Of a stretch of 64,000 nucleotides of DNA, positions 20,955 to 51,926 are shown one piece after another. Position 1 is the first letter of the stretch; every line of letters starts with the position of its first letter. Origin of the DNA: a bacterium (GTDB lineage: Bacteria > Cyanobacteriota > Vampirovibrionia > Obscuribacterales > Obscuribacteraceae). The translations under genes were made by a program, and so were the position numbers. Location of the stretch: assembly GCA_016124935.1 (NCBI GenBank), contig WGMS01000001.1, forward strand, positions 124,001 to 188,000, given 5' to 3'. Below the pieces are notes generated by a model, which was not told where the DNA came from, did no database searches, and saw nothing but the letters and a program-made list of their open reading frames with translations.

Positions 20955-20975
20955 CTAGATCTAGATCGTGCACGA
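20955..20975. promoter_or_regulatory. Two adjacent perfect palindromes before the repeat-protein gene
   Basis: CTAGATCTAG (20955-20964) and TCGTGCACGA (20966-20975) are both perfect 10-base palindromes, one base apart, ending 10 bases before the ATG at 20986. They could be operator half-turns or a leader hairpin. The second contains the alternative in-frame GTG at 20968. Confidence 0.35.
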
Positions 20976-20985
20976 GTTCTGTGTC

Positions 20986-22251
20986 ATGAAGAAAACCATC
21001 CGATTTATCTCGACTTTAGCGCTTGTGAGCCTGACCTTATCTGTCGGGTTCACTCAACCACCGGCTCTAGCCCAGGGCGACCCCAGCCAGGTCAGACAGG
21101 ATGATTCCACCGGTCAATCGGGTTGGATACAGCCTTCTATAGATAACAGCTCCGGTTCAGATTCCACCGGTCAATCGGGCTGGATGCAGCCTTCTAACGA
21201 CAGCTCCGCTGCTGATGCCGATCAATCGGGTTGGACGCAGCCTTCTAACGACAGCTCCGCTGCTGATGCCGGTCAATCCGGCTGGACTCAGCCTTCTAGT
21301 AACAGCTCCGCTGCTGATGCCGGTCAATCGGGTTGGACTCAGCCTGGCAATGGCAGCTCCGCTGCTGATGCCGGTCAATCGGGTTGGACCCAGCCTGGCA
21401 ATAACAGCTCCGCTGCCACGGGACAATCGGGTTGGACCCAGCCTGGCAATAACAGCTCCGCTGCTGATGCCGGTCAATCGGGTTGGACCCAGCCTGGCAA
21501 TAACAGCTCCGCTGCCACGGGACAATCGGGTTGGACCCAGCCTGGCAATAACAGCTCCGCTGCCATCGGACAGTCGGGTTGGACGCAGCCTGGCAATAGC
21601 AGCTCCGCTGGTGCTCCCACCATAACCGGTCAGTCAGGATGGACCGAGCCGACGAATGATTCAGGATCAGGGCAGCAGAAGGCACCCCTTCTAGGAGAGG
21701 TGCTGCAACAAGAACAACAGACCAATACAGGCGCGATCTCGAACCAGATACCAAATATGGGTATGGGTGTTCCTATGGGTGGGATGCCGATGCAACAGGG
21801 CATGGGCGCTGCCCCCATGGGTGGAATGCCTGTGGGTGCTCCTATGGGTGGAATGCCTATGGGTGGAATGCCTATGGGTGCTCCTATGGGTGGAATGCCT
21901 ATGCAACAGGGCATGGGTATGGATGGAAGCGGAATGGGCGCTATGGGAGCCATGGGTATGATGGGCGCCGGCGGTGGCGGCAATCTGGCCGGCACTGTAA
22001 TCAACATGCTCATGAATGTCATGCCGAACGGCACAAACATGCAACCTGGTGCCACCACCACAAATGGCACCATGACGGGTATGCCGGTTCAGCAAGTGAG
22101 ACCTAGCACTATCAATCGCGTCCCAGGGGCAACGACAGTAAGAAGATCCGCTCATACAGTCAATCGCAGTGTCTCCAGCGGAGTCAATCGCGGCATCAGG
22201 CGTAGTATCAACCAGAGCCTCAATCGCAGCATGAGAATGCTGAACTTCTAA
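20986..22251 (+). CDS. Exported protein with eleven GQSGW repeats and a Met/Gly-rich middle
   Basis: The start is the ATG at 20986, which opens a signal peptide (MKKTIRFISTLALVSLTLSV, cut near ALAQG); an in-frame GTG at 20968 is possible. Residues about 43-228 hold eleven tandem units of 16-19 residues of the form GQSGWTQPGNNSSAADA. A Gln-rich bridge follows, then a block of MGGMPMGAP-type repeats (about 260-325), a small Gly-rich segment and a basic tail rich in Asn, Arg and Ser. The units look like surface-exposed adhesive or matrix repeats: polar, with one invariant Trp. No anchor (LPXTG, lipobox, late membrane segment) is visible. It follows ctpA and converges with a TPR gene whose stop it overlaps. 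The function is unknown. Confidence 0.85.
   Translation: MKKTIRFISTLALVSLTLSVGFTQPPALAQGDPSQVRQDDSTGQSGWIQPSIDNSSGSDSTGQSGWMQPSNDSSAADADQSGWTQPSNDSSAADAGQSGWTQPSSNSSAADAGQSGWTQPGNGSSAADAGQSGWTQPGNNSSAATGQSGWTQPGNNSSAADAGQSGWTQPGNNSSAATGQSGWTQPGNNSSAAIGQSGWTQPGNSSSAGAPTITGQSGWTEPTNDSGSGQQKAPLLGEVLQQEQQTNTGAISNQIPNMGMGVPMGGMPMQQGMGAAPMGGMPVGAPMGGMPMGGMPMGAPMGGMPMQQGMGMDGSGMGAMGAMGMMGAGGGGNLAGTVINMLMNVMPNGTNMQPGATTTNGTMTGMPVQQVRPSTINRVPGATTVRRSAHTVNRSVSSGVNRGIRRSINQSLNRSMRMLNF
21112..21669 (+). repeat. Tandem repeat array, 11 units of about 48-57 bases
   Basis: Each unit encodes GQSGW[TIM][QE]P followed by a Ser/Asn/Ala linker. Units 5-9 are nearly identical at DNA level and alternate ADA and AT linkers, so the array probably expands and contracts by recombination. 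Because unit lengths are multiples of three, all six frames stay open for long stretches, producing false frames. Confidence 0.9.
21757..21963 (+). repeat. Met/Gly-rich short repeats (MGGMPMG type)
   Basis: Units of ATGGGTGGAATGCCT and ATGGGTGCTCCT recur in register within the exported repeat-protein gene, encoding MGGMP and MGAP motifs. The block is distinct from the upstream GQSGW array and would give a flexible, methionine-rich stretch. Confidence 0.75.
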
Positions 22252-23435
22252 TTTTTCATGTTTTCGATCTGACCACCGACAAAGTCCAGGGCGGTATTGA
22301 CCATATCTATGGTTTCATTGAAGTTCGCCGTATGTCGAGCTCTTAGAGAATCCGGAACAAGCCGCACCGCATCCGAGATCTTGAGCTGGAAAACATAAGA
22401 ACAAGCTAGCTGCTGCAACAAAGAATACTCCAATTTCGTATCCAGAGACCCAGAACCTTTCATAAGATCCAGGGCAATCGAAAGATATTTCTCTGATGTG
22501 CGGAAATCCTGACAGTTGAGATTAGCCAGACCAAGACCGATCAAACTGCCCACAGTATAGGGACTCTCTTTGCCCCAGCGCCGCTGGGCCAACTCCAGTG
22601 CATCGCTATAGATATCCCTCGCCTCAGTGTTCTTACCGGTAGAAAGCTTCACCGTACCAAGCCGATCTAAGGCATAGATATTCCAGGCATGGACAGGCGG
22701 AAGTGAAGATTTGAGGACGCCCACACACTCTTCTGCGCAAGGCTCCGCTCTTGAGAGGCGACCCTGTTTGATATAGACTGTGGAGAGGTTGAGCAGAGTA
22801 AGGCCGTATTCCGGATGTCCACTGCCGACTATGGCTTCCTGCATCTCCAGCGCTTGCCTGGCAAGAACCTCTGCAGGAGCGAATTTGCCCAGCTGGCTAT
22901 AGCAAAAACTCAACTGATTCATGGACTGAGCCAGTTCGGAATGTTTACCACCCAGCAAGCTCCTGCGCATGCCAAAACTCTTTGATAGCTTCGCTTCGCC
23001 CTGATCGAGCTTATTGGACCTCACATCATTCAGTCCCTGCATGGCGATGGTGTCGGCCACCTGAACGGAATAAGGACCGCAAGCTTGCCTTGCTGTCTCG
23101 AGGGCGTGCTCCAGTTTCTCTTCGGCGGCGCTGAACTGATCGAGGCTGGTGAGCGCCTCGCCCAGCCGTGTCCTTACCTGGGCTAATTCCTCGATAGAAT
23201 TATCCGACTTATTGAGTTTTTCGTACTCTTTCTCGGCTTCTTCCAGATTTTGTCTGGCGCTGTCACTCAAATCCAGCTTAATCTCCGAATTACCAAGCCA
23301 CAGAAGGGCTCCGGCATAATCTTTACTACCCTTCGAAGAATTGTCCCTGGCAGCCCTGAAAGCCACCCGAGCCGCCGCATATTCGCCGTCGTCGAGGTGC
23401 TGCAGACCTTGTTCCAGGGATTTTTTTGAAGACAT
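22248..23435 (-). CDS. Cytoplasmic TPR protein (kinesin-light-chain type repeats)
   Basis: The 395-residue protein has no signal peptide and begins SSKKSLEQGLQHLDDGEYAA. Seven or more TPRs of the 42-residue KLC/TPR_12 type follow: FSAAEEKLEHALETARQACG, LDQGEAKLSKSFGMRRSLLG, FAPAEVLARQALEMQEAIVG, LSRAEPCAEECVGVLKSSLP and NTEARDIYSDALELAQRRWG. It is divergent from the VWA-PP2C-kinase triad across an 87-base spacer, so it may share regulation with that module and could act as its scaffold; this is positional inference. Its stop overlaps the convergent repeat-protein stop by 4 bases. Confidence 0.85.
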   Translation of the reverse strand: MSSKKSLEQGLQHLDDGEYAAARVAFRAARDNSSKGSKDYAGALLWLGNSEIKLDLSDSARQNLEEAEKEYEKLNKSDNSIEELAQVRTRLGEALTSLDQFSAAEEKLEHALETARQACGPYSVQVADTIAMQGLNDVRSNKLDQGEAKLSKSFGMRRSLLGGKHSELAQSMNQLSFCYSQLGKFAPAEVLARQALEMQEAIVGSGHPEYGLTLLNLSTVYIKQGRLSRAEPCAEECVGVLKSSLPPVHAWNIYALDRLGTVKLSTGKNTEARDIYSDALELAQRRWGKESPYTVGSLIGLGLANLNCQDFRTSEKYLSIALDLMKGSGSLDTKLEYSLLQQLACSYVFQLKISDAVRLVPDSLRARHTANFNETIDMVNTALDFVGGQIENMKN

Positions 23436-23522: not shown

Positions 23523-24365
23523 ATGCCATATATCGCAGAAATTAGTAGAACCCATCCATCTTGTTTTGTTTTTCTTATTGACCAGTCCGGCTCGATGCAG
23601 GACCCCTTCGGCTCCGTTTCGGGACTGAAAACCAAAGCTATGGGAGTCGCCGACGCCATCAACAGACTTTTGCAAAATCTGGTAATCAAATGCACAAAAT
23701 CCGAAGGGATTCGTGACTATTACCATGTCTCGGTAATTGGTTATGGTGGCAAGGGCGTAGGTCCGGCATTCACCGGCTCTTTAAAAGGCAAAGAGCTGGT
23801 CAAGATAAGTGAGATCGGAAACAACCCGGCCCGCCTGGAAGAACGTAAACGCACCGTAGAAGACAGCCGCGGCGAGATGGTGGAGCAGACTTTCAAATTC
23901 CCCATATGGTTCGAGCCAACGTCCTACGGCGGCACTCCTATGAACGCCGCAATTCAAAAAGCCACCTCCAACGTGGTCAACTGGCTGGCGGACCATCCCG
24001 ACTGCTTTCCTCCAATTGTAATCAATATCTCGGATGGTGAATCGACCGATGGAGACCCCTTCCAGTCCGCTTATGACCTTATGACCCTGTCGAGTTCCGA
24101 TGGGGAAGTTCTGCTCTTCAATCTGCATATTTCTTCTTCTAACCACAGACCGATTGAGTATCCGGATAATCCGGACTATTTACCGGACCAACAGGCTAAG
24201 CTGCTGTTCTCGATGTCCAGTACGCTGCCGGAATATATGAGAACCATGGTTGAGAAAGAAGGCATCCCGGTTTCATACAATACCCGGGGCTTCGTTTTCA
24301 ATGCCGATCTGGTATCAGTGATTCGTTTTCTCGATATCGGCACCAGACCAAGCAACATGCGATAG
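23523..24365 (+). CDS. TerY-like von Willebrand factor A domain protein
   Basis: The 280-residue protein is essentially one VWA domain. The metal-ion site is visible: FVFLIDQSGSM (D20, S22, S24), a Thr in YGGTPMNAAIQKA and an Asp in VINISDGESTDGD. Such domains bind partners through a bound divalent metal. Gene order VWA, PP2C phosphatase, Ser/Thr kinase on one strand with 17- and 10-base spacings is that of the TerY-phosphorylation triad described alongside tellurite-resistance (Ter) genes. There are no TerB/C/D/Z genes here. The ATG has no ribosome site but sits close behind a candidate promoter. The domain call is strong; a role as phospho-regulated adaptor follows from the known triads. 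Confidence 0.88.
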   Translation: MPYIAEISRTHPSCFVFLIDQSGSMQDPFGSVSGLKTKAMGVADAINRLLQNLVIKCTKSEGIRDYYHVSVIGYGGKGVGPAFTGSLKGKELVKISEIGNNPARLEERKRTVEDSRGEMVEQTFKFPIWFEPTSYGGTPMNAAIQKATSNVVNWLADHPDCFPPIVINISDGESTDGDPFQSAYDLMTLSSSDGEVLLFNLHISSSNHRPIEYPDNPDYLPDQQAKLLFSMSSTLPEYMRTMVEKEGIPVSYNTRGFVFNADLVSVIRFLDIGTRPSNMR

Positions 24366-24382
24366 CGAACGCACTAACGAAA

Positions 24383-25108
24383 ATGACCTTCTTGAAATAC
24401 GACGCTTATAAAATGCAAAAAGCCGGCAACAGCGCGGAAGAATACGAAGACGGCTATTCTATAAAAGAGATAAACGACGAGGAAGTTCGTTTCGCCATTG
24501 CCGATGGCGCCACCGAAAGCTCTTTCTCAGGCATCTGGGCCTCTCTACTCTGTGAAGGCTACACCGAAAGCATTCCTATCTCCCAGCTGAAAGAGAGCTG
24601 GCTCGCAAAAGTGGACGCTCTGGAATTACCCTGGTACGCCAGGGAAAAAGCGGAGCAGGGAGCCTGGGCTGCTTATTTAGGAGCCAGCTTCTTTTCTGGA
24701 AAAAGCAATCGTCTCGAGATTCAAGCCTATGGAGACTGCAATATCTTCCAGATTCGGGAAGGCAATCTTTTGAAAGCTTTCCCACTCACAAGAAGCTCTG
24801 AATTCGGCAGCACACCAGCCCTGTTATCGAGCCTGGATCAAAAACAAGAGTGTGATGATGATTTTCAAAATATAGATTATCACTGGCTTCAAGGTGACAA
24901 CTTTCTGCTCATGACCGACGCTCTAGCAGCATGGTTCTTGAACGAAATCGAGAGCAAAGGCGACGGATTCAATCGTGTTCTCGCGATAGGCAATCAAGAA
25001 GAGTTCGAGAAGCTGGTTAATGAAGAGAGAGAAAAAAGAGATCCGGAAAAAGGTCCGCGCTTGAAAAATGATGATGTCACCCTTATCAAAATAGAGTTAG
25101 AGTCTTAG
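24383..25108 (+). CDS. PP2C-type protein phosphatase
   Basis: The 241-residue protein is a compact PP2C domain. Metal-binding motifs are present in order: FAIADGATESSFSG (D41, standing for the DGMGG motif), AYGDCNIFQIREGN, LLMTDALAAWFL and the late KNDDVTLIKIEL. It should remove phosphate from Ser/Thr, most simply reversing the kinase encoded immediately downstream. The first motif has Ala-Thr instead of the usual Met/Val-Gly-Gly, a variant common in bacterial PP2Cs of VWA/kinase clusters. It starts 17 bases after the VWA stop, and the kinase begins 10 bases after its own stop, so the three are one operon. No membrane segment is present, so a soluble enzyme is expected. Confidence 0.85.
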   Translation: MTFLKYDAYKMQKAGNSAEEYEDGYSIKEINDEEVRFAIADGATESSFSGIWASLLCEGYTESIPISQLKESWLAKVDALELPWYAREKAEQGAWAAYLGASFFSGKSNRLEIQAYGDCNIFQIREGNLLKAFPLTRSSEFGSTPALLSSLDQKQECDDDFQNIDYHWLQGDNFLLMTDALAAWFLNEIESKGDGFNRVLAIGNQEEFEKLVNEEREKRDPEKGPRLKNDDVTLIKIELES

Positions 25109-25118
25109 AGTCTGGAAT

Positions 25119-26588
25119 ATGTTCATCAACCTGGCCAACCACACCGATGCCTCCCTCAAGATCATTCAACTTGCCCACCAGCTAACAAATGATCTCGGAC
25201 ATTCCATAACCGGCACCGAGCATCTATTTCTGGGGATTCTTGCCGACCAGAACTGCTCTCCTTCCAGAATTCTGAGGTCCATGGGAATAACCTATAAGAA
25301 GGCGGAAGAGGAAGCTATAAGACTTCTAGGTAGAGAAAAGAGGCTGAACAACCACGACTACGTATTCACCCCCAGGGCCAAGGCGCTCATTAATCTAGCC
25401 GGAGAAGAGACCGCAAGAGGGGAGGACCCCCATCGCGTAGAGCCCGAGGACATGATGCTGGCGCTTTTGAGAATGAAACGCTGCACTGCCCATAAAATCA
25501 TGCATGCTCTAGATCTTGATGTCGAGCTGATCTTGTCCAGACTCAAAGTGATACCACGCGACACCCTGACCGGAAACACCACCAGTGATCAACTCACCGA
25601 GCTGCACCGAAAAGTATGCGCCGGAGAATTCTTCAGCGAGGATAAAATCGAGGAAGAAAGCCCGGATCCGATGATCGGATACATAGTGGATCAAAAGTAC
25701 GAGATCCTGGAAGTCATCGGTCGTGGTGGCATGGGAGTAGTATACAAAGTCAGGCATCTTATTCTGGATCGTTTTTTCGCCATCAAAATTCTCCATCCTT
25801 ATCTAGCTTCCGACGTCACCAACAAACGACGCTTCCAGCGTGAAGCCCAGGCCGCAAGCCGCTTGACTCATCCCAATCTAGCCACGGTATTCGACTGGGA
25901 TCTTCTCCCCGATGGTCGCCCTTATCTGATCATGTACTATATCGAAGGGATCAAACTATCGGATCTTATCGGCTGCCAGGATAGAATTCCTCTTTCTATC
26001 TGGATGTCGATTTTCATTCAAATCTGCAACGCTCTTGCCCACGCCCACAACCAGGGTGTGATTCACCGGGATTTGAAGCCGGGCAACATCATTCTGGCAA
26101 GAGAAGGCAATGTCACCCACTTCGTCAAAATTGTCGATTTCGGCATAGCCAAATTATTGATGGATTCAAAAGAAGAAAAAGACGAAAGTAAATTGAAGAA
26201 AGAGCGAGAACTGACCAAAACCGGAGAGGTCTTCGGCAGCCCGCTCTACATGAGCCCTGAACAATGTCTGGGTCGGACTATCGACAATCGCTCCGATATC
26301 TACGGACTGGGTTGTGTCATCTACGAGGTCTTGACCAGCGCGCCACCGTTTTGTTGTGACAGCCTCTATGAGACCATGAAGGCTCAGATTTCAGACCCGC
26401 CCGCACCGATAAGCGAGCTATCGGTGTTTGATGAGAAGATCCCGGCGGAGTTGGAGAGACTCACCCTCGAGTGCTTGAACAAGAACCCCGAAGACAGGCC
26501 CCAGTCCATGGAAGCACTGGGAGCAATGTTGTCGAGAATCAACAAGATCTACTATCGCAAAGGCGAGGAAGAAGAGCTAGTCTACTGA
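25119..26588 (+). CDS. Ser/Thr protein kinase with N-terminal Clp-N domain
   Basis: Residues about 8-145 form a Clp repeat (Clp-N) domain, with both halves visible (TGTEHLFLGILADQNCSPSR; VEPEDMMLALLRMKRCTAHK). This fold recognises substrates or adaptors in ClpA/ClpC. A linker leads to a Hanks kinase (about 194-475): glycine loop IGRGGMGVVYK, K223 in FFAIKILH, catalytic HRD at 316-318 (GVIHRDLKPGNI), DFG at 340-342 and SPLYMSPEQC in the activation segment. All catalytic residues are intact. There is no membrane segment. It closes the VWA-PP2C-kinase operon and converges with hflX (4 bases between stops). The domain fusion suggests kinase targeting by a degron-like signal; that is inference. 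Confidence 0.93.
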   Translation: MFINLANHTDASLKIIQLAHQLTNDLGHSITGTEHLFLGILADQNCSPSRILRSMGITYKKAEEEAIRLLGREKRLNNHDYVFTPRAKALINLAGEETARGEDPHRVEPEDMMLALLRMKRCTAHKIMHALDLDVELILSRLKVIPRDTLTGNTTSDQLTELHRKVCAGEFFSEDKIEEESPDPMIGYIVDQKYEILEVIGRGGMGVVYKVRHLILDRFFAIKILHPYLASDVTNKRRFQREAQAASRLTHPNLATVFDWDLLPDGRPYLIMYYIEGIKLSDLIGCQDRIPLSIWMSIFIQICNALAHAHNQGVIHRDLKPGNIILAREGNVTHFVKIVDFGIAKLLMDSKEEKDESKLKKERELTKTGEVFGSPLYMSPEQCLGRTIDNRSDIYGLGCVIYEVLTSAPPFCCDSLYETMKAQISDPPAPISELSVFDEKIPAELERLTLECLNKNPEDRPQSMEALGAMLSRINKIYYRKGEEEELVY

Positions 26589-26592
26589 TTCT

Positions 26593-28359
26593 TCAAGCAC
26601 TGGAACGCTGCCTGTCCGGTCTTACATCCTGTATCACGGTTTGAATCTTGGAAAGAAGGCTTCCAAGACCGATTCTGCTGGTGGCCGAAGTAATCACCGG
26701 ATTCGGTACCTGGGGCATAAGCCATTCCAGATCCTCTCTTCTGACCTGATCGGCCTTGTTCAAAACAGTGATGATAGGCTTATCTACAGCCCCCAGCTCG
26801 CTCAAGACATCGAAGACCGAAACGATGTGCTCCAGTACATTAGGATGGCTGGCGTCGACCACATGCACCAGAACATCGGCGACGGCTACCTCTTCGAGAG
26901 TGGCTCTGAAAGAGGCTATCAGTGAAGTCGGCAATTTCTTGATGAAGCCCACCGTATCGGATATCAGAACCGGGCTGTGATCAGGCAGGGTGGTTCTTCT
27001 GGTGGTCGGATCAAGAGTGGCGAATAGCTTGTTTTCGACAAAAACGTCGGATTTGGTGAGAGCGTTCAATAGTGTCGATTTGCCAGAGTTCGTATAACCG
27101 GTAAGAGCCACCGTCGGCACATTCTGGGTGTTACGCTGCCTTCTCTGGGTATCTCGATAGTTGCGAATGCGTTCGGTCTCTTTTTCCAGCTGATTGATAC
27201 GCGACCGAATTCTTCTTCGATCTATTTCGAGCTTGGTTTCACCCGGTCCCCGGGTGCCGATGCCACCGCCAAGACGGCTGAGAACTTCGCCTTTGCCCAC
27301 CAGCCGCGGGTAGAGATACTTGAGCTGGGCAAGCTCCACCTGCAGCTTACCTTCTTTTGTGCGGGCACGCTGGGCGAAAATATCGAGAATCAGTTCGGTT
27401 CGATCGAGGACCTTGACACCGATCATCTCCTCCATCCGCTTTTGTTGATTCGGAGTCAACTCAGAATCGACTACAACCAGATTGGCTCCCATCTCCTGGA
27501 CTAATAGCGCCACTTCCTGAACCTTACCGGAACCGAGGAAATGACCGGGGTGCGGCTTCTGTCTCGACTGGGTCACCCTGGTGCAGATGGTGGCGCCAGC
27601 GGTTCGGACGAGCTGAGCAAGCTCATCAAGATCGTCTTCAATCTGCCAGGCGTCCGAACCTTCGGAAATGAGCGCCACAAGCACTGCTCGCTCTTCTCCC
27701 TCAGCTACTTTGAGACCTGGGGCTCTGGTGCTGAACTCCTGCTCGAGCGATCCGATAAGTTGCTCGAAATCATCCTCCTGGGCTCCACGCGGAGTAACCG
27801 GCGGCAACATCTTCCATAAACGCCCATCGGAATCTCTACCCGGCAAAAGATGAGCGATATGAACAACATCGGCCAGCTTGGCATGTTCGCCCCGGGCTCG
27901 ACTGAACCTGCCATCAGGATCGACTTTGATCTGAGCCAGCAAATCAAGTCTGTTTCTGGCCAGACACTGCAAACTCTCTTTGGTGAAAACTTCGGAAGGC
28001 TTATCCTTGCCCGCTATCTCTTCCTGACCTTCACCCAGCCTCGGTGTGGTCTTCGCACTCAACTGGGTGCTTATGATGCGGTGCCCGCATAGACGACCGG
28101 GTCCCACCCTCAAGCCGCGTAGCTCGGGCATGTTGACTTTACCAGGATTGCCTACGGTGACATTGACAATCTGGCCTCGCCTGTTTACTACTACTGATAC
28201 TGGATAACCAGTGTTGTGTGATATTTCCGCTACCGAATCGGCTAAATCCAGGGTAAGGATCTTGTCTTTGGGAATTCTTTTGGAAAGAATCTTGTTGAGC
28301 TGTTTCAGTTCTGACTTTTTAAGTCCTTTGACATTGCCTAAATCAAGCTTGCCTTGCAA
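26593..28359 (-). CDS. hflX: Ribosome-associated GTPase HflX
   Basis: HflX splits stalled ribosomes in other bacteria. The 588-residue protein has the HflX N-terminal domain (GSGKVQEVALLVQEMGANLV, VDSELTPNQQKRMEEMIGVK, DRTELILDIFAQRARTKEGK), the linker LGGGIGTRGPGETKLEIDRR and a G domain with VALTGYTNSGKSTLLNAL (G1), TTLPDHSPVLISDTVGFI (G3) and TVLNKADQV (G4). It is longer than the usual 400-440 residues because of an extra N-terminal domain of about 190 residues (ELKQLNKILSKRIPKDKILT, GLRVGPGRLCGHRI), a form I associate with Cyanobacteria-related HflX. The TTG start has AGGAGG 10 bases upstream, which settles it. A promoter is marked separately. Confidence 0.93.
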   Translation of the reverse strand: MQGKLDLGNVKGLKKSELKQLNKILSKRIPKDKILTLDLADSVAEISHNTGYPVSVVVNRRGQIVNVTVGNPGKVNMPELRGLRVGPGRLCGHRIISTQLSAKTTPRLGEGQEEIAGKDKPSEVFTKESLQCLARNRLDLLAQIKVDPDGRFSRARGEHAKLADVVHIAHLLPGRDSDGRLWKMLPPVTPRGAQEDDFEQLIGSLEQEFSTRAPGLKVAEGEERAVLVALISEGSDAWQIEDDLDELAQLVRTAGATICTRVTQSRQKPHPGHFLGSGKVQEVALLVQEMGANLVVVDSELTPNQQKRMEEMIGVKVLDRTELILDIFAQRARTKEGKLQVELAQLKYLYPRLVGKGEVLSRLGGGIGTRGPGETKLEIDRRRIRSRINQLEKETERIRNYRDTQRRQRNTQNVPTVALTGYTNSGKSTLLNALTKSDVFVENKLFATLDPTTRRTTLPDHSPVLISDTVGFIKKLPTSLIASFRATLEEVAVADVLVHVVDASHPNVLEHIVSVFDVLSELGAVDKPIITVLNKADQVRREDLEWLMPQVPNPVITSATSRIGLGSLLSKIQTVIQDVRPDRQRSSA

Positions 28360-32726: not shown

Positions 32727-34295
32727 CTACTTGATGCGTGCTCGATATCGCTTCTTGAGGTTGTCGACCTCTTTTCTCAAGACCGGGTCATCGCTCACTT
32801 TATCCAGATATTCAATACCTGCCTGAAAGTCTTTTGTGCGCGCCGATTTTTTGGCCAGCGCCAGATAGGAATGGTCGAGTTTTTTCTGATATTCCTGGGA
32901 CAATCCGTTGGTCTTTTTGACATTTTCAAGAATTTGAACACAGCCTTCAAAATTGTTCTGTTGAAGCAACTGGTTGGCGATGCGGGTATCATTCCAACTT
33001 GCGTATGTCTGTACCATGAATGTGACGGAGAGTATAACGACGGTCAAATAAACCGCTGCCTTGAAATGGCTCATGTTAATGGGCAGCTTCTTCTTTTTCT
33101 TAACTGCGGCAAATTCGGTAGTGCTCCTGGCCCAATCATAGCTGGGATCAAGCCGGCTCATCGCCTCTTCCGGAGAATTCGGTGAAGTCGCCTTATTGCC
33201 GAATCCATCTACGCTTTTCTTGGTTTGACCGGGCATGGCGATGCCGGCAGAATCGCTGAAAGGGATCCAGTCTTCAACCGGTTTCTCTTCTTCTTCGGTG
33301 GCTTTCTTGACGTTGCGACCGACACAGACAGCCTCTATCTCTTTCCAGAACTCCTCGGCATCGTTGTGCCTGTCATCAGCGCTCTTTTGAAGAGCCTTTG
33401 AGATTACATTACTGAGCCCTGGTGGAAAGGTCATGTTGGGAGACATGGCCCCTATGGACGGTGCCTCTTTGTTGACATGCATAAGCATAAGAGCCATCAA
33501 ATCGTCGGCGGCAAAAGGACGTTGGCCAGTCAAAACCTCGGAAAATACGACTCCCAGACTGTAGATATCCGATCGCAGATCGACATCGGCGCCTTTGCAC
33601 TGTTCCGGGCTCATATAAGCAGGACTGCCGCAGACTTTCCCTTCCAGGGTGAGAGAGGCTGACTGGCCGCCGGCCTCGCCCCACATTTTTGCGACACCGA
33701 AGTCCACCACCCTCACCGAATTATGACCGATCAGATCCTTCGAGTTCGGCGGTTTATTCACATCTACATCTTGCAAAACAATATTATCAGGTTTCAAATC
33801 TCGGTGGATAACCCTGTTTTTATGTGCTTCGGAGACACCTTCACAGACCTGCTTCATAAGAGGCAAGGCCTCTTTGACGGTCAGATGACCTCGCTTGCGA
33901 ATCAGCTCGGCAAGGGTGATACCATCAAGGAACTCCGTGACGATGTAAGGCTGTCCATCCGGCATCACGCCAAAATCGAAAAGGCTGATGATATTAGTAT
34001 GGTGCAGGCTGCTTACTGCTTTAGCTTCCCGATGGAATCTTTTTACGGACTCCTCTTTTGAACCGAGGAACTGGTGCAACATCTTAAGAGCCATCTCCCG
34101 TCCGGTAGACTCTTGAATCACTTTGTAGACAACAGCCATAGATCCTTTACCGGCGTGACAGAGCACTCTGTATTTATCCCCGATCAACTTGCCGATCAAA
34201 GGATCATTGCCGACCGAAATCAGCTTGCCACCATCAGTGGGACACTTATCCTTATCTTCAGAAAAATGAATGTTGCATTCCAGACAGAGCTTCAT
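32727..34295 (-). CDS. Membrane-anchored Ser/Thr protein kinase with N-terminal zinc ribbon
   Basis: The 522-residue protein begins with a probable zinc ribbon (LCLECNIHFSEDKDKCPTDG; only three cysteines are seen, so metal binding is unsure). The Hanks kinase domain (about 40-330) has AGKGSMAVVYK, K71, the HRD motif at 164-166 and DFG at 198-200, all intact. A charged linker leads to one membrane segment near 413-434 (YLTVVILSVTFMVQTYASW). The last 88 residues, presumably outside, form TPR-like helices (NQLLQQNNFEGCVQILENVK) resembling the tail of the giant kinase upstream. It starts 23 bases after that gene's stop, so the two are co-transcribed. It is probably an envelope-sensing kinase. Confidence 0.92.
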   Translation of the reverse strand: MKLCLECNIHFSEDKDKCPTDGGKLISVGNDPLIGKLIGDKYRVLCHAGKGSMAVVYKVIQESTGREMALKMLHQFLGSKEESVKRFHREAKAVSSLHHTNIISLFDFGVMPDGQPYIVTEFLDGITLAELIRKRGHLTVKEALPLMKQVCEGVSEAHKNRVIHRDLKPDNIVLQDVDVNKPPNSKDLIGHNSVRVVDFGVAKMWGEAGGQSASLTLEGKVCGSPAYMSPEQCKGADVDLRSDIYSLGVVFSEVLTGQRPFAADDLMALMLMHVNKEAPSIGAMSPNMTFPPGLSNVISKALQKSADDRHNDAEEFWKEIEAVCVGRNVKKATEEEEKPVEDWIPFSDSAGIAMPGQTKKSVDGFGNKATSPNSPEEAMSRLDPSYDWARSTTEFAAVKKKKKLPINMSHFKAAVYLTVVILSVTFMVQTYASWNDTRIANQLLQQNNFEGCVQILENVKKTNGLSQEYQKKLDHSYLALAKKSARTKDFQAGIEYLDKVSDDPVLRKEVDNLKKRYRARIK

Positions 34296-34318: not shown

Positions 34319-37300
34319 CTACCTCCGTTTGGAACGACGCTTTGATCGCCGACTGTTGCTGCTCTTCTTGCTGCTATATTGATCTATTAATTCCTTCGCC
34401 TCATCGAAGTGACTGGAATCCTTCGGAACTTTCTTCAACTCCTTAATAGCTGCCGCCGTATTATCATTCTTAGCCTGATATTTAGCGATGGCGATGTAAA
34501 TTTCGTCCAGCTTGTTCTCTAACTTAGGCGTCAAGCCGACTTCGGAGTTATACTTCTCCAGCATGTCCCGGGCTTTGGAAAGCTGCCCCCTGCCTACCAG
34601 TTCGCTGGACTCTGCAAGAACTTCCTCGTCCCTGGCGCTGTCCTCATCCTTGCCACCACCACCGACACCGGATGTCATCTTGGAGAGCATCGAACCAATT
34701 CCACCGAACCAACCCTGGTTCACACCTAGAAATCCGATCAGTCCCAGAACAGCCACCACCAAAAGCGGGGTCTTGACATCAAAACCAAGTCCGCTCTGTT
34801 TAGACCGCAGGCGATCAGAAGTCCGTTTTGATCCCTTAGCTTCCGCTTCTGCCATGTGGGCCAGACGATTGGTGCTGATACTCTCGAGACTCTCAAGTGA
34901 ATAAGGGGAATCAGACATTGTCGACATATTGGAAGGAGCAGTCGAGCTGGTCATACCATAAGATTCCTGCGGCATATCCGCTTCGTCATGACCAGAGAAG
35001 CCTTGCGCTCCAGCTTCTTCTAGAATTCTATTTACGGCATCTCGACGCTGTCCGCCCGAAAACACAGAGGGAGTTGGGTCCATGCCGCCAGGCAATTCGA
35101 CATTATCCAGCCTGCTGGAATTGAGGTCCAACTTCTCGTTCAATGCTGCGATTCTGGCGTTTACCGCATCCTGACCGTATTTATCTCCCTGGGGATTCAT
35201 ACTGGGCATTCGTCCGGAAGAAGCGATTGCACTCGCATCGCTGAAACCTCTGGCACTTTGAAGACTCTCCCGGGGATTGGCATCCTCACCGCCCAACCTC
35301 ATCGAATCGCCGGAGGCATCCTGCATCATCTCGTTCACCATACTCGATGACAGTTGATAGGCACCACTTCTGGTGGAGCTCTCCGGGGCATTGCTTGCTG
35401 CCTCGAGCAGTCGACTCAAAGCATCGGATGTGGATGTCGATGCTGAAGCCTTGACGGATGATTTGCTCAATTCCGTCTTCTGCATTCCCATCTTTCCTCC
35501 CCCTGAATAAGCCCCGCCTGGAGCATCATCTTCATCATCGTTCATAGAAAGAGCAGCCGACAGTTTGGCGGCAGCAGCACTGATGCCCTGGGGTTTCTCC
35601 TCTTCAGGCTCGTCATCGATTCCACCACCGAGCAAATTGCCTTCTCCGCCACCGGCCACCGAATCGAGCCACTTGTCGACAGCATCGGAGATCTCGTTGG
35701 TGGCAGCCGGCATCTTCGGCTGCGATGAGGACGAGGACGAGGACGAGGACGAAGACGAAGCGCCTATGCCTCCACCCATGGTGTCATCGGGAAACATATC
35801 ATCCACCGCAGATGCAATCGGATTGGTTGCCTCAGGCATGCGACCTTTCAGTCCACTGTTACTTGCTGCACCGGTCTGACTTTTTAGAAAATCGCCAAGA
35901 GCCTGGGGAGCATCGTCCTCGCTCACTTTGCTCTTAGCTTGGCCGGCGCCGAAATTGACCTTCTGGCCTTTGCTGATATCCAGGGTCTGAAATTCGGAAT
36001 TCTCGTCGTCTCCACCGCTAAAAAGATCGAGCGGATTGACGGACTTCTCTTCGACCCCTTTCTCTATCGACCCTTTCTCTCCGGAAAGTAATCTATCGGC
36101 TTCTTCAGTCATGCTGCTCAAAAGCGAGCCAAGACCGGTGCTCGGCACCTTCTTCTCGCCACCGTCGCTGCTCGAGTCGCTCTCACTTGCAAAACCCGAA
36201 CCGAGCAGTCCATCGTCGGCATCGAGAGGATTCGGTATCGAAGGCACAACCCCGTCTTTGGCTTTATCGACTTCGGAGACACTTTTGGTATCCAGGGAAG
36301 AGGAATAGTCCTCCATCACATTTCCCTGAACAGGAGAATCAAATTCACCGCTCTCCTTCTTGACCTTCTCCAGCTCTTTTTTGAGATCGCTGAGAGACAT
36401 TTTTTCCGGTGCCGAGCTTTTTGCCGGCTCTGGTGCGGTTTCCAGCCTGGCTTCTGGTTCGGTCTCGGTCTCGGAGAGGCCTTTGCTGTCAGGAGAAACT
36501 GCCGCGTTCTCAGGCGAAGCGGCGTTCAAAGCAGGGCCGGGGCTGGCCGGCGGCTCCACCGGAGATGCCGGTGTCGGCGCACCTGGTGCAGTTTGCCCAG
36601 GCGGCATCATCTGCTGAGGTGGAATCTGTTGATATGGTCCCGGCATTTGAGGATATCCCGGAGGAGGAACCATCCCCTGGGGAGGCATATACGGAGGCAT
36701 CTGAGGATACTGTCCGGGCATCATGCCGGACGGCGGCATCTGACCGGGCGGCCAGGACATGTTTTGAGCCTGGGCAGGGTCATAGCCATGGGGCGGCATC
36801 GGATAGCCCGGCGGGTAGGGACCCGGATGAGGGGGGTAGCCGGGAGGAACCTGGTAAGGCGGACCATATGAATAGGGAGGCATCTGCCCGGGTTGCATGG
36901 GAGTGCCGCTGGGCCACGGTCCGGATAGGCTCGGGTCAGGTTTCAGCGTATCGCCCACAGGAATACTGGTGGGCTCGAAATTGCCTGTTTTCAGTGCTTC
37001 TACTTCATCCTCCCAGCTGATTTTGGAGAGCTTGTCTCCGCCACCGGGACTGCCTTTCTCCAGTTTTGTAGGTAGATTGCCATCTAAATCCGATTCCGGA
37101 CGTTTGACTTTCTTGACCTTCTTAATCACCTTCTTGATGGTTTTGACCCCGGGCTTGGCGGTGGGGTCGGTGGCGGCTCTGGCAGCGGAGCCCGCTGTCG
37201 TCGATGAAGAACTGCCGGCAACAGGGGAGCCGGAGCTCGAGCTTCCAGGTCTGGAAGCAGGAGCCTGACCGGCTGGAGAGCCGGCAGGTCGCTGAACACC

Positions 37301-38971
37301 AGGAGTCGCCGGTTTACCCATGGGTCGGACAGGTGTTCCCGGCTTGCTAATGCCTTTTGCAGGAGTGGCAGGTCTTAGCGGAGCTTCTACCTGCTTTTCC
37401 TTAGGAGGCACATAGCTGTAGACGGAAGGAGGTCTGGCTTCGGTCTTTGGAGAGTCCGCCATTTCTGGTTTCGAGGCAACTGCCGTCGGTTTCTTGACCT
37501 CGGATGTAGGCTTGACCAGAGCTGACAATCTGCCAAGAGACTGGCTGCCCAATGGAGCCGCCGTGTTAAGTCCTGAAGGAGAGGCGGAAGGAGGAGTTGA
37601 GGAACTGGAAGCTGGACCGGCAGCGGGACGGGCAGGAGTCGGATTTGTAGCTGGAGTCGTCGTGGCAGGTGCGTTCGGTCTGGCAGGGGATGAGGGACTG
37701 GCCGGCTGCGGAGCCGGAGGTCTGGCACTGGCAGATGGTGGTGGTACCTTGACAGGTGCTGGAGAACCCTCTGAATCGGATTTCGGTTTCGGCATCGGAG
37801 GCGGCGGAGCCTTCGGTCTTGTTGGAGGCAGAGGCGGTGGTCCGGAATTTCTAGGGGGTCCGCCTGCTGGACAGGGAGGCGGAGGAGCAGAGCTCGAAAT
37901 TCCTGGAGACGGCGGTGGTGCAGCCTTGGCCTGTGGTGTCGGAGGAGCCTTCCCTTCTCCGGCATCCATAAACAACTCGGGCATATCCTCGGGACCGGCC
38001 GCAAATTTGGGCTTCTTGGGCTCCGGCTCGATCAATCTTTCTGTGGGGAGAAACTCATGTTGTTCGAAAGGTTTATTATCCACTGAAATCACATTCCTAG
38101 TTGAGTTTTTTTTTCCGAAATCTGTCTTTTCGCAAGCGGCTTCCAGCTCCAGCACAAGCTGTTTGATAGAAGGTTGCCTGTCATTAGGATTTTTAGAAAG
38201 CGCCTTGGCTACTACCGCTTCGACTTCCGGAGGAAAGTCGACAGCCGGATTCACGGTTTTCATCAGGGGCGGCTGCTCAGTAACCGTCTTGTACATGAGC
38301 TTGGTGAGATCCGGAGCGACAAAGGGACGTCTGCCGGTGAACATCTCGAAAAGAATTACCGCCAAGGAATATAGATCGGAACGAAAGTCCAGTTCGAAAC
38401 CCTGACACTGTTCCGGGCTCATATAAGCAGGACTGCCGGCCACGGTCTGAGGTTTCTGAAATCTGGCTCTCTGTGCGCTTTCAGCCGGAGTATCGGCGAT
38501 GCCGAAATCCAGTACTTTGGCGTAATCTCTTCTTTCACTCGCTTCGAGAACAACGTTCTCGGGTTTCATATCCCTGTGAATCAGCCCCTGCTCATGGGCA
38601 TGGGAGAGGGCCTCGCAAATTTGCTTGAAGATGCTCAAGACTCGGTGTGGTGGCAGAGAACCTTGTTCTTTGAGGAGGTCACCGAGGGTGACTCCTTCCA
38701 GATAATCCATGACCAGGTAAGGCTGTCCATCGTCGGTGGTACCTGATTCCCATACGGTGATGATATGCGGATGTCTCAGTTTCTCCGCCGCCTTCAACTC
38801 TCGAATCAGCCTATCTAAAGAAGCACGATCGAGACCGATGTAACTGTCGATCACCTTGATTGCCACCACACCACCCATCATCAAACGGGTGGCTTTATAC
38901 ACAGTTCCGGAAGAACCTTTGCCGATGACGGAATCGACAACATAGCGATCATTGATCATGTCACCAATCAA
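34319..38971 (-). CDS. Giant membrane-anchored Ser/Thr protein kinase (1,550 residues)
   Basis: A TTG start is fixed by AGGAGG 7 bases upstream. The kinase domain occupies about residues 8-275: IGKGSSGTVYK, K39 in VVAIKVID, HRD at 132-134, DFG at 155-157 and GSPAYMSPEQC; all catalytic residues are present. It is followed by about 1,100 residues of low complexity: Pro/Ala/Ser-rich, Pro/Gly/Tyr/Met-rich (MPPYMPPQGMVPPPGY type), acidic Ser-rich segments and a serine run. A single membrane segment lies near 1402-1419, and a final TPR-like region (about 1440-1535) ends in a very basic tail. The layout puts the kinase inside and the helical repeats outside. It is first in a two-kinase operon. The linker could be a phosphorylation platform, by inference. 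Confidence 0.93.
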   Translation of the reverse strand: MIGDMINDRYVVDSVIGKGSSGTVYKATRLMMGGVVAIKVIDSYIGLDRASLDRLIRELKAAEKLRHPHIITVWESGTTDDGQPYLVMDYLEGVTLGDLLKEQGSLPPHRVLSIFKQICEALSHAHEQGLIHRDMKPENVVLEASERRDYAKVLDFGIADTPAESAQRARFQKPQTVAGSPAYMSPEQCQGFELDFRSDLYSLAVILFEMFTGRRPFVAPDLTKLMYKTVTEQPPLMKTVNPAVDFPPEVEAVVAKALSKNPNDRQPSIKQLVLELEAACEKTDFGKKNSTRNVISVDNKPFEQHEFLPTERLIEPEPKKPKFAAGPEDMPELFMDAGEGKAPPTPQAKAAPPPSPGISSSAPPPPCPAGGPPRNSGPPPLPPTRPKAPPPPMPKPKSDSEGSPAPVKVPPPSASARPPAPQPASPSSPARPNAPATTTPATNPTPARPAAGPASSSSTPPSASPSGLNTAAPLGSQSLGRLSALVKPTSEVKKPTAVASKPEMADSPKTEARPPSVYSYVPPKEKQVEAPLRPATPAKGISKPGTPVRPMGKPATPGVQRPAGSPAGQAPASRPGSSSSGSPVAGSSSSTTAGSAARAATDPTAKPGVKTIKKVIKKVKKVKRPESDLDGNLPTKLEKGSPGGGDKLSKISWEDEVEALKTGNFEPTSIPVGDTLKPDPSLSGPWPSGTPMQPGQMPPYSYGPPYQVPPGYPPHPGPYPPGYPMPPHGYDPAQAQNMSWPPGQMPPSGMMPGQYPQMPPYMPPQGMVPPPGYPQMPGPYQQIPPQQMMPPGQTAPGAPTPASPVEPPASPGPALNAASPENAAVSPDSKGLSETETEPEARLETAPEPAKSSAPEKMSLSDLKKELEKVKKESGEFDSPVQGNVMEDYSSSLDTKSVSEVDKAKDGVVPSIPNPLDADDGLLGSGFASESDSSSDGGEKKVPSTGLGSLLSSMTEEADRLLSGEKGSIEKGVEEKSVNPLDLFSGGDDENSEFQTLDISKGQKVNFGAGQAKSKVSEDDAPQALGDFLKSQTGAASNSGLKGRMPEATNPIASAVDDMFPDDTMGGGIGASSSSSSSSSSSSQPKMPAATNEISDAVDKWLDSVAGGGEGNLLGGGIDDEPEEEKPQGISAAAAKLSAALSMNDDEDDAPGGAYSGGGKMGMQKTELSKSSVKASASTSTSDALSRLLEAASNAPESSTRSGAYQLSSSMVNEMMQDASGDSMRLGGEDANPRESLQSARGFSDASAIASSGRMPSMNPQGDKYGQDAVNARIAALNEKLDLNSSRLDNVELPGGMDPTPSVFSGGQRRDAVNRILEEAGAQGFSGHDEADMPQESYGMTSSTAPSNMSTMSDSPYSLESLESISTNRLAHMAEAEAKGSKRTSDRLRSKQSGLGFDVKTPLLVVAVLGLIGFLGVNQGWFGGIGSMLSKMTSGVGGGGKDEDSARDEEVLAESSELVGRGQLSKARDMLEKYNSEVGLTPKLENKLDEIYIAIAKYQAKNDNTAAAIKELKKVPKDSSHFDEAKELIDQYSSKKSSNSRRSKRRSKRR
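35727..35760 (+). repeat. GAGGAC hexanucleotide microsatellite
   Basis: Four perfect GAGGAC copies followed by GAAGACGAAG encode a run of serines in the giant kinase linker (read on the minus strand). Units of six bases keep the frame, so slippage would change linker length without breaking the protein. Confidence 0.8.
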
Positions 38972-50643: not shown

Positions 50644-51786
50644 TCAGCTCTGGCTTACCGAGCGCTTTTCGAAGCAGTCTTTGACCGTTACTTTCAATCT
50701 CTCTTTAAGTTCTGCCAGGCGCTGGGTGATTTCGATACGGCGCTTCTGCAATCCGAGCATCTGCTGCTTTCTGTGATCATCCATCGCTTCTATGAACAGC
50801 TCATGCAGGGCTATTTCTTCACCCTGGGTCCACCAGAGATCCTCTATAACAGCTCCGATCTCGTCATACTCAGCCTCGTCCATCATCTGGTCGAATAGGC
50901 GATACTCGTTGGAGAAGACATACTCTATGGCGGAGCGAACTTCTTCTCTAACGTGCTGGGCGGCCGAAGACACAATGGAAGCGAGCAGTTCCTGATCGAG
51001 GGGGCCGCTCCGGTCGGTGAGCATGTCGAGGGATTCTTCCAGGAGATAGCGGCGGAAGGCGACCTGGGACCAGAGGAAATCGGAGAAATAGGCAACACAG
51101 ACACGATGCACTATCTCGGCCCGTCCGGGAAGATTGTTGATTCTCAAACCGCTGCGGTGAGCGAGGGCTTGCAGAGAGCGAACCGATGTGTAGGAGCGAT
51201 CTATCAACTCTCTCAATCCAGAGACCATAGAGTTGCGCATGCCGGGTAGCTCGCGATAAACGCTCAGTTCCGCCGCCATCATATGAAGAATTTCCCGGCG
51301 CAGGAAAGTCAGATTGGCGCCAAGGTCATCAAATAGTTTGGTGGAGGTGGCATCGGGCAGATCTATTAAGGCAAGAAGCAGATGAACAGGCTCGATGTCC
51401 GGCTGACCGAAGAACAGAGAATAATCGAAAGATCGAATCAGGGCTTGAACCACCAGATCGCTGAAGCCGATTGGATGATCGACAGACTGGGGTGGCACCG
51501 CCGGAGAAGGGAAACCGCTTTCGACCACGTCGGGTCTGTCTGTGTACAACAACTCGGACTCGACCTGGTCTCGGAACTGACGGTCGACCTCTTGACGAAT
51601 GGTGTCCGCATCCAGCTTCATACTGGCCAGGACGACTCCGGCAACGGTATCTTCGTCCACTGCCAGAGCGGTCAAAAGATGTTCGGTACAGACATATCTG
51701 TGCCCGGTGTTCAGGCACTCAGCCATGGCCTGCTGAATTACATTCAGATATGATTCGCCGGCTCTCTCAAAAACCGAGTCAATCAT
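50644..51786 (-). CDS. Clp-N domain protein without an ATPase module
   Basis: The ATG at 51786 has GGAGG 5-6 bases upstream, which settles it against the in-frame TTG at 51798. The N-terminal 150 residues of 380 form a Clp repeat domain: AESYLNVIQQAMAECL-like start, TGHRYVCTEHLLTALAVDED in the first half and IEPVHLLLALIDLPDATSTK in the second. The rest is helical, ends in a likely coiled coil (HRKQQMLGLQKRRIEITQRL) and has no Walker motif, so it is not ClpA/ClpC. It could act as an adaptor or decoy for Clp substrates, or be related to the Clp-N kinase at 25119-26588. Function unknown. Confidence 0.8.
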   Translation of the reverse strand: MIDSVFERAGESYLNVIQQAMAECLNTGHRYVCTEHLLTALAVDEDTVAGVVLASMKLDADTIRQEVDRQFRDQVESELLYTDRPDVVESGFPSPAVPPQSVDHPIGFSDLVVQALIRSFDYSLFFGQPDIEPVHLLLALIDLPDATSTKLFDDLGANLTFLRREILHMMAAELSVYRELPGMRNSMVSGLRELIDRSYTSVRSLQALAHRSGLRINNLPGRAEIVHRVCVAYFSDFLWSQVAFRRYLLEESLDMLTDRSGPLDQELLASIVSSAAQHVREEVRSAIEYVFSNEYRLFDQMMDEAEYDEIGAVIEDLWWTQGEEIALHELFIEAMDDHRKQQMLGLQKRRIEITQRLAELKERLKVTVKDCFEKRSVSQS

Positions 51787-51926
51787 GAAGGCCTCCAATT
51801 AATTTATGCTTACCCTAACTCAGTAGAATGAAATACTACTTGCTTGATTACCTGTTAGCAACCTGAAAACAATTATCTACGTGTACAATTCAGATTCACA
51901 ACCCCAGTATCCGGCGGAGACAGGTC

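Follow-up and report, generated by a model that had tools for sequence, protein, structure and literature searches.

TerY-P systems are broadly defined as a TerY protein, a Ser/Thr kinase and a PP2C phosphatase (PMC4978471), and their kinases bear a C-terminal zinc ribbon or OB-fold that is thought to bind nucleic acid (PMC11090510). Stand-alone TerY-P triads have already been described (PMC11090510, PMC7699616), and the roles reported for them are in defence or alongside restriction systems (PMC11090510, PMC7699616, PMC4978471).

The locus analysed here lies in a metagenome-assembled genome of Candidatus Obscuribacterales (4.4 Mb, assembly 89% complete). The Obscuribacterales are non-photosynthetic relatives of cyanobacteria. 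In the following, the window is the whole stretch of DNA that was analysed (64,000 nucleotides), and it contains these features:

20968-22251, forward strand: protein that looks secreted, containing GQSGWTQPGNNSSAA-type repeats as well as a region rich in Met and Gly
22248-23435, reverse strand: TPR protein, a divergent resident neighbour (from synteny in relatives without the triad)
23523-24365, forward strand: VWA gene encoding a TerY-type stand-alone protein, 280 aa (from PADLOC TerY)
24383-25108, forward strand: PP2C phosphatase gene of TerY-P type, 241 aa (from PADLOC PP2C)
25119-26588, forward strand: gene of a soluble Clp-N/Hanks kinase fusion, 489 aa (from Pfam and a structure model)
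25119-25553, forward strand: Clp-N coding part of the kinase gene, residues 1-145
26593-28359, reverse strand: HflX GTPase, a convergent resident neighbour and boundary of the insertion (from Pfam and synteny with ctpA across the family)

The VWA and PP2C genes and their setting

The triad runs in the order VWA, PP2C, kinase on the forward strand, with intergenic spacings of 17 and 10 bases in the ORF calls; the initial annotation, made from the letters alone, had placed such a tandem at 23523-26588, and the ORFs were recovered there. No transmembrane segment is apparent in any of the three proteins (the top 19-residue hydropathy, 1.4, occurs in the kinase), and all three are probably cytosolic. 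A scan of the locus for promoters and terminators gave signal at chance level only, and the genes immediately flanking the triad include no nuclease and no other recognised defence gene. The TPR gene had been considered a possible part of the module. This did not hold up: in at least 14 relatives with no triad here, a TPR gene is present all the same, in the order ubiD, ctpA, S-rich genes, TPR (reverse) and hflX (reverse), which makes it a resident of the locus outside the module. The protein encoded at 20968-22251 has fast-evolving relatives at the same position within the family.

The VWA protein matches the PADLOC TerY profile PDLC02224 over its full length (residues 1-280; 352 bits, 5e-106), and the metal site (MIDAS) that had been read from its sequence is indeed intact, with D20-Q-S-G-S24, T138 and D171 invariant across eight diverse homologues. 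Homologues were found in 30 of 50 family genomes and also in many phyla, while a search of the PDB with the VWA profile returned no sequence relative at 0.01. The PP2C matches PDLC02222 over residues 13-240 (121 bits, 1.4e-35) and carries the motifs EEYED at 19, ADGATE at 40, TDALAAW at 178 and NDDVT at 229, the acidic motifs being intact, as had been noted, and invariant in five orthologues. It evolves fast: between this genome (G000) and its relative G033 identity is 81% for the VWA protein, 78% for HflX and 55% for the kinase, and only 40% for the PP2C. The VWA-PP2C pairing is nevertheless kept in relatives and in other phyla, and judged by their profile matches both proteins are members of the TerY-P families.

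The TerY-like nature of the triad, likewise proposed at the outset, was borne out by these PADLOC matches and by comparison with 80 homologous loci from many phyla, which were obtained by scanning GTDB genomes with the VWA profile. In 61 of the 80 a kinase of the STK_OB family (PADLOC PDLC02223) lies near the VWA gene, mostly as the third gene and starting ~1600 bases past the VWA start. The initial annotation had also rated the absence of Ter genes as unusual, and only half of this claim stands: the TerD family (PF02342) gave no match genome-wide in the 89% complete assembly, but such a lack is ordinary, given that stand-alone triads are on record and that STK_OB accompanies the VWA gene at most of the surveyed loci. 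In the broad sense the locus is a TerY-P system, as a TerY-family VWA gene, an adjacent TerY-P-type PP2C gene and a Ser/Thr kinase gene share an operon; it falls outside the strict definition (PADLOC STK_OB, or the zinc-ribbon kinase of CoCoNuT), its kinase being of another family.

The kinase and its Clp-N region

The kinase consists of a double Clp-N region (residues 1-145), a variable linker (146-190) and a PknB-like kinase domain (193-467), with Pfam matches to Pkinase (1e-47) and Clp_N (9.5e-10). Its HRD and DFG motifs, which had been called intact, are present as HRDLKPGN at 316 and DFG at 340, together with GRGGMG at 201, the catalytic lysine in AIK at 221, and SPEQ at 379. Residues 187-475 match NCBIfam PknB with 286 bits, and PknB (6i2p) is the top Foldseek match of the kinase region; the whole-kinase AlphaFold model built from five sequences was poor (pLDDT 54), and this match was applied to the kinase half only. 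STK_OB was not among the best 25 of 36 profile matches, and the orthologous kinases at L141 and L151 gave no STK_OB match at 1e-5. Pfam detected no domain C-terminal of residue 467, and the kinase has neither an OB-fold nor a zinc ribbon. On these profile comparisons the kinase is PknB-like and outside the STK_OB family, and yet it starts 1596 bases past the VWA start, which is the position of STK_OB in typical loci. What is unusual about this locus is thus the family of its kinase, a Clp-N/PknB-like protein in the STK_OB slot.

A two-half Clp-N fold at the N-terminus had been postulated from sequence, and structure prediction agreed: the AlphaFold model of the Clp-N region (32 Clp-N sequences; pLDDT 88, pTM 0.86) has eight helices in two repeats, among PDB entries it is closest to 5gui, the N-domain of ClpC1 (TM 0.90, rmsd 1.5), and a Clp-N profile search is in accord with the fold (1.7e-32). 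Pfam detects the first half only, while an NCBIfam ClpB match spans residues 9-157. As modelled, residues 1-145 form a genuine double Clp-N domain. In an alignment of six of these kinases the linker is variable, while Clp-N and the kinase domain are conserved, as is a helix in the second repeat with the invariant sequence RCTAxKxxHALD, which is absent from the aligned ClpC sequences.

The N-domain of ClpC docks adaptors, clients and phospho-arginine (5hbn, 2y1r), the last through the glutamates of two GTEH motifs (in B. subtilis ClpC, E32 and E106). The first of these (E34 here) is retained in all six kinases, whereas the second site reads E, I, D, E, E and I, and phospho-arginine reading via both sites was rejected on this lack of conservation. 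As the second glutamate is not kept and the RCTAxKxxHALD helix is not found in the aligned ClpC sequences, the ligand of this Clp-N region probably differs from that of ClpC. It is plausible that the region has a specific docking ligand, and likewise that it recruits degrons or components of the Clp machinery to the kinase. A ClpS gene is present in the genome; a search for McsB gave no match, but control genomes likewise gave none.

Clp-N domains and Hanks kinases also occur elsewhere in these genomes. The source genome encodes about 85 Hanks kinase domains, and the window itself holds a kinase with a zinc-ribbon-like N-terminal start (32727-34295) and one of 1550 aa (34319-38971). A 384-aa protein with two Clp-N repeats (50644-51798, reverse strand; Pfam Clp_N 1.2e-17) has no detected AAA+ or kinase domain. 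Such Clp-N-only proteins are greatly expanded in Obscuribacterales, and a single example comes from a different family within the class (L117:4731-8858, L120:7449-12311, L116:4910-8130, L119:6061-8270, L118:7039-8448, L249:1477-2844); some are many-repeat chains of up to 1620 aa, and in some genomes the genes lie near clpC.

Distribution and history of the triad

The Clp-N kinase was found at two of the 80 TerY loci, both in Obscuribacterales, and in six of 53 genomes of the order, where it occupies the third slot of a triad in five only. Among 244 evenly sampled Cyanobacteriota genomes searched at 1e-24 no further Clp-N kinase fusion was seen, the remaining matches being frames of 701-853 aa and one 455-aa Clp-N repeat protein; neither of two matches outside Obscuribacterales that were read through is a kinase, one being ClpC and the other a protein of Clp-N repeats. 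At a Planctomycetaceae locus (L199) VWA-PP2C also has a Hanks kinase next to it, but this kinase is unrelated, lacking Clp-N and following a sigma-factor-like gene. In the literature searched, no Clp-N kinase is described.

In most relatives the neighbour of the VWA gene is STK_OB, a divergent gene whose product begins WPxPQDYNEA, and three of these score 365-422 bits; several relatives encode more than one STK_OB protein of 1300-1490 aa. Genus g23 has a split triad, with VWA-PP2C (L044-L048) and STK_OB-VWA without PP2C (L059-L064) at separate loci, the former adjoining a methyltransferase-aminotransferase fusion. At L069:1802-14703, TerY, PP2C and two STK_OB genes lie beside ZorA- and ZorB-like genes (a Zorya-like motor pair) and a gene for a 1589-aa ATPase.

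The triad sits between TPR and hflX in this genome and in G033, G040, G023 and G006. Across these five genomes of three genera the gene order is the same, the gaps are 2-49 bases and synonymous divergence is saturated, so that dN/dS of the triad is not computable. The co-occurrence of the three genes in related genomes was thereby confirmed: beyond this genome they recur together in four more, which belong to two additional genera, and their association is not due to chance. In a tree of HflX and CtpA a sixth genome, G004, is sister to the five (support 0.997). There the S-rich gene is followed immediately by the gene of an intact Clp-N kinase (L114:7900-9348), and the genome has no TerY gene and no STK_OB match at 1e-30. 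This state is exactly as expected if TPR-VWA-PP2C had been deleted, the alternative being a late arrival of VWA-PP2C. The VWA tree of the five genomes branches as the HflX and CtpA tree does, and the five VWAs group with STK_OB-neighboured VWAs (G014, G030, G037), with a support of 0.58 for the nearest branch. In the unrooted kinase tree G000 and G004 stand apart from the other kinases, in line with expectation, and the single conflict, a weak one, lies within genus g24. According to these trees, the triad is vertically inherited in one Obscuribacterales clade.

Possible function and relation to known systems

The explanation I prefer, though it has only about an even chance of being right, is a lineage-specific TerY-P phosphorylation switch in which the kinase, and with it the recognition module, was exchanged. 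The TerY and PP2C matches, the slot of the kinase, the gene order in five genomes, the congruent trees, the Clp-N fold, its conserved helix and the ClpS gene were counted in its favour; the lone kinase of G004, the many Hanks domains, the unlinked STK_OB and the unconserved second glutamate were counted against it. In such a switch Clp-N would take over from the OB-fold or zinc ribbon as the recognition module, the kinase might dock through it on Clp clients, degrons or adaptors (e.g. ClpS), and the input signal would then be protein-quality stress rather than nucleic acid. The docked kinase would phosphorylate the VWA protein and perhaps other proteins, the PP2C would reverse the phosphorylation and reset the state, and the VWA protein could relay the output by metal-dependent binding at its metal site. 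That the switch was rewired in this way from nucleic acid to protein-quality sensing, with a Ser/Thr kinase reading Clp degrons or adaptors as its input, is a tentative and somewhat doubtful step further. The initial annotation had proposed that Clp-N brings substrate, degron or Clp protease components to the kinase, and this remains a reasonable hypothesis.

Alternatively, the Clp-N kinase may be independent and downstream by chance, with VWA and PP2C working with an unlinked STK_OB elsewhere in the genome, which appears rather unlikely. The genome does encode a single STK_OB (1435 aa; L111:6383-10690, reverse strand) with no TerY or PP2C gene adjoining, other genomes of the clade encode several, and genus g23 keeps VWA-PP2C and STK_OB-VWA at different loci. 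Local synteny is generally high, and since G004 retains the kinase but neither VWA nor PP2C, this protein can act outside the triad. Against this stand the tight, same-strand arrangement with the kinase in the canonical third slot, maintained across five genomes whose synonymous divergence is saturated, and the block missing from G004, which is contiguous and fits a single deletion. As G004 also lacks an STK_OB match, it offers no example of such a pairing.

Somewhat less probable still is an anti-phage defence module of the kind reported for stand-alone TerY-P, in which Clp-N would sense a phage-induced protein state. TerY, PP2C and kinase count as PADLOC defence families, ClpN repeats are fused to vWA in predicted conflict systems (PMC7159879), and STK_OB-containing TerY-P protects against T7-like phages according to PMC7699616, which reports Gao et al. 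(2020). The vertical inheritance of the triad, its fixed site between ctpA and hflX, the lack of a directly adjoining defence gene and the lack of an effector domain within it speak against this role. A metal or tellurite stress switch of Ter type is highly improbable, as no TerD-family protein was found in the genome at its 89% completeness, even though the TerY-type VWA has an intact MIDAS and metal sensing by a phosphorylation switch has been hypothesised for TerY-P (PMC11090510).

If the kinase was indeed exchanged as a whole while VWA and PP2C were kept, this would separate a conserved core from an exchangeable input, and with a Ser/Thr kinase and a recognition domain of the ClpC type in one polypeptide, phosphorylation signalling would be tied to regulated proteolysis. 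Compared with the TerY-P triads (Anantharaman 2012; Gao 2020; CoCoNuT-associated), the locus is alike in its VWA and PP2C families, its gene order with the kinase third and its tight operon, but their kinase is STK_OB or has a zinc ribbon, whereas here it is PknB-like with an N-terminal Clp-N and there are no nuclease or helicase neighbours. The catalytic domain resembles that of PknB-type Hanks kinases with PP2C partners (PknB/PstP), yet this kinase has neither a transmembrane segment nor PASTA domains and instead has the Clp-N region and a VWA partner. With the ClpC/ClpB N-domain and stand-alone Clp-N proteins (plant ClpT1/T2, mycobacterial ClpC2) it shares a double Clp-N without an AAA+ unfoldase, but here this is fused to a kinase that looks active, and the sequence of the second repeat is replaced by RCTAxKxxHALD. 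Finally, the FtsH ternary vWA-MoxR conflict systems also join Clp-N to a vWA-based system; there Clp-N is on the vWA protein, together with MoxR and ubiquitin-like conjugation, whereas here it is on the kinase of a TerY-P-like triad (PMC7159879).
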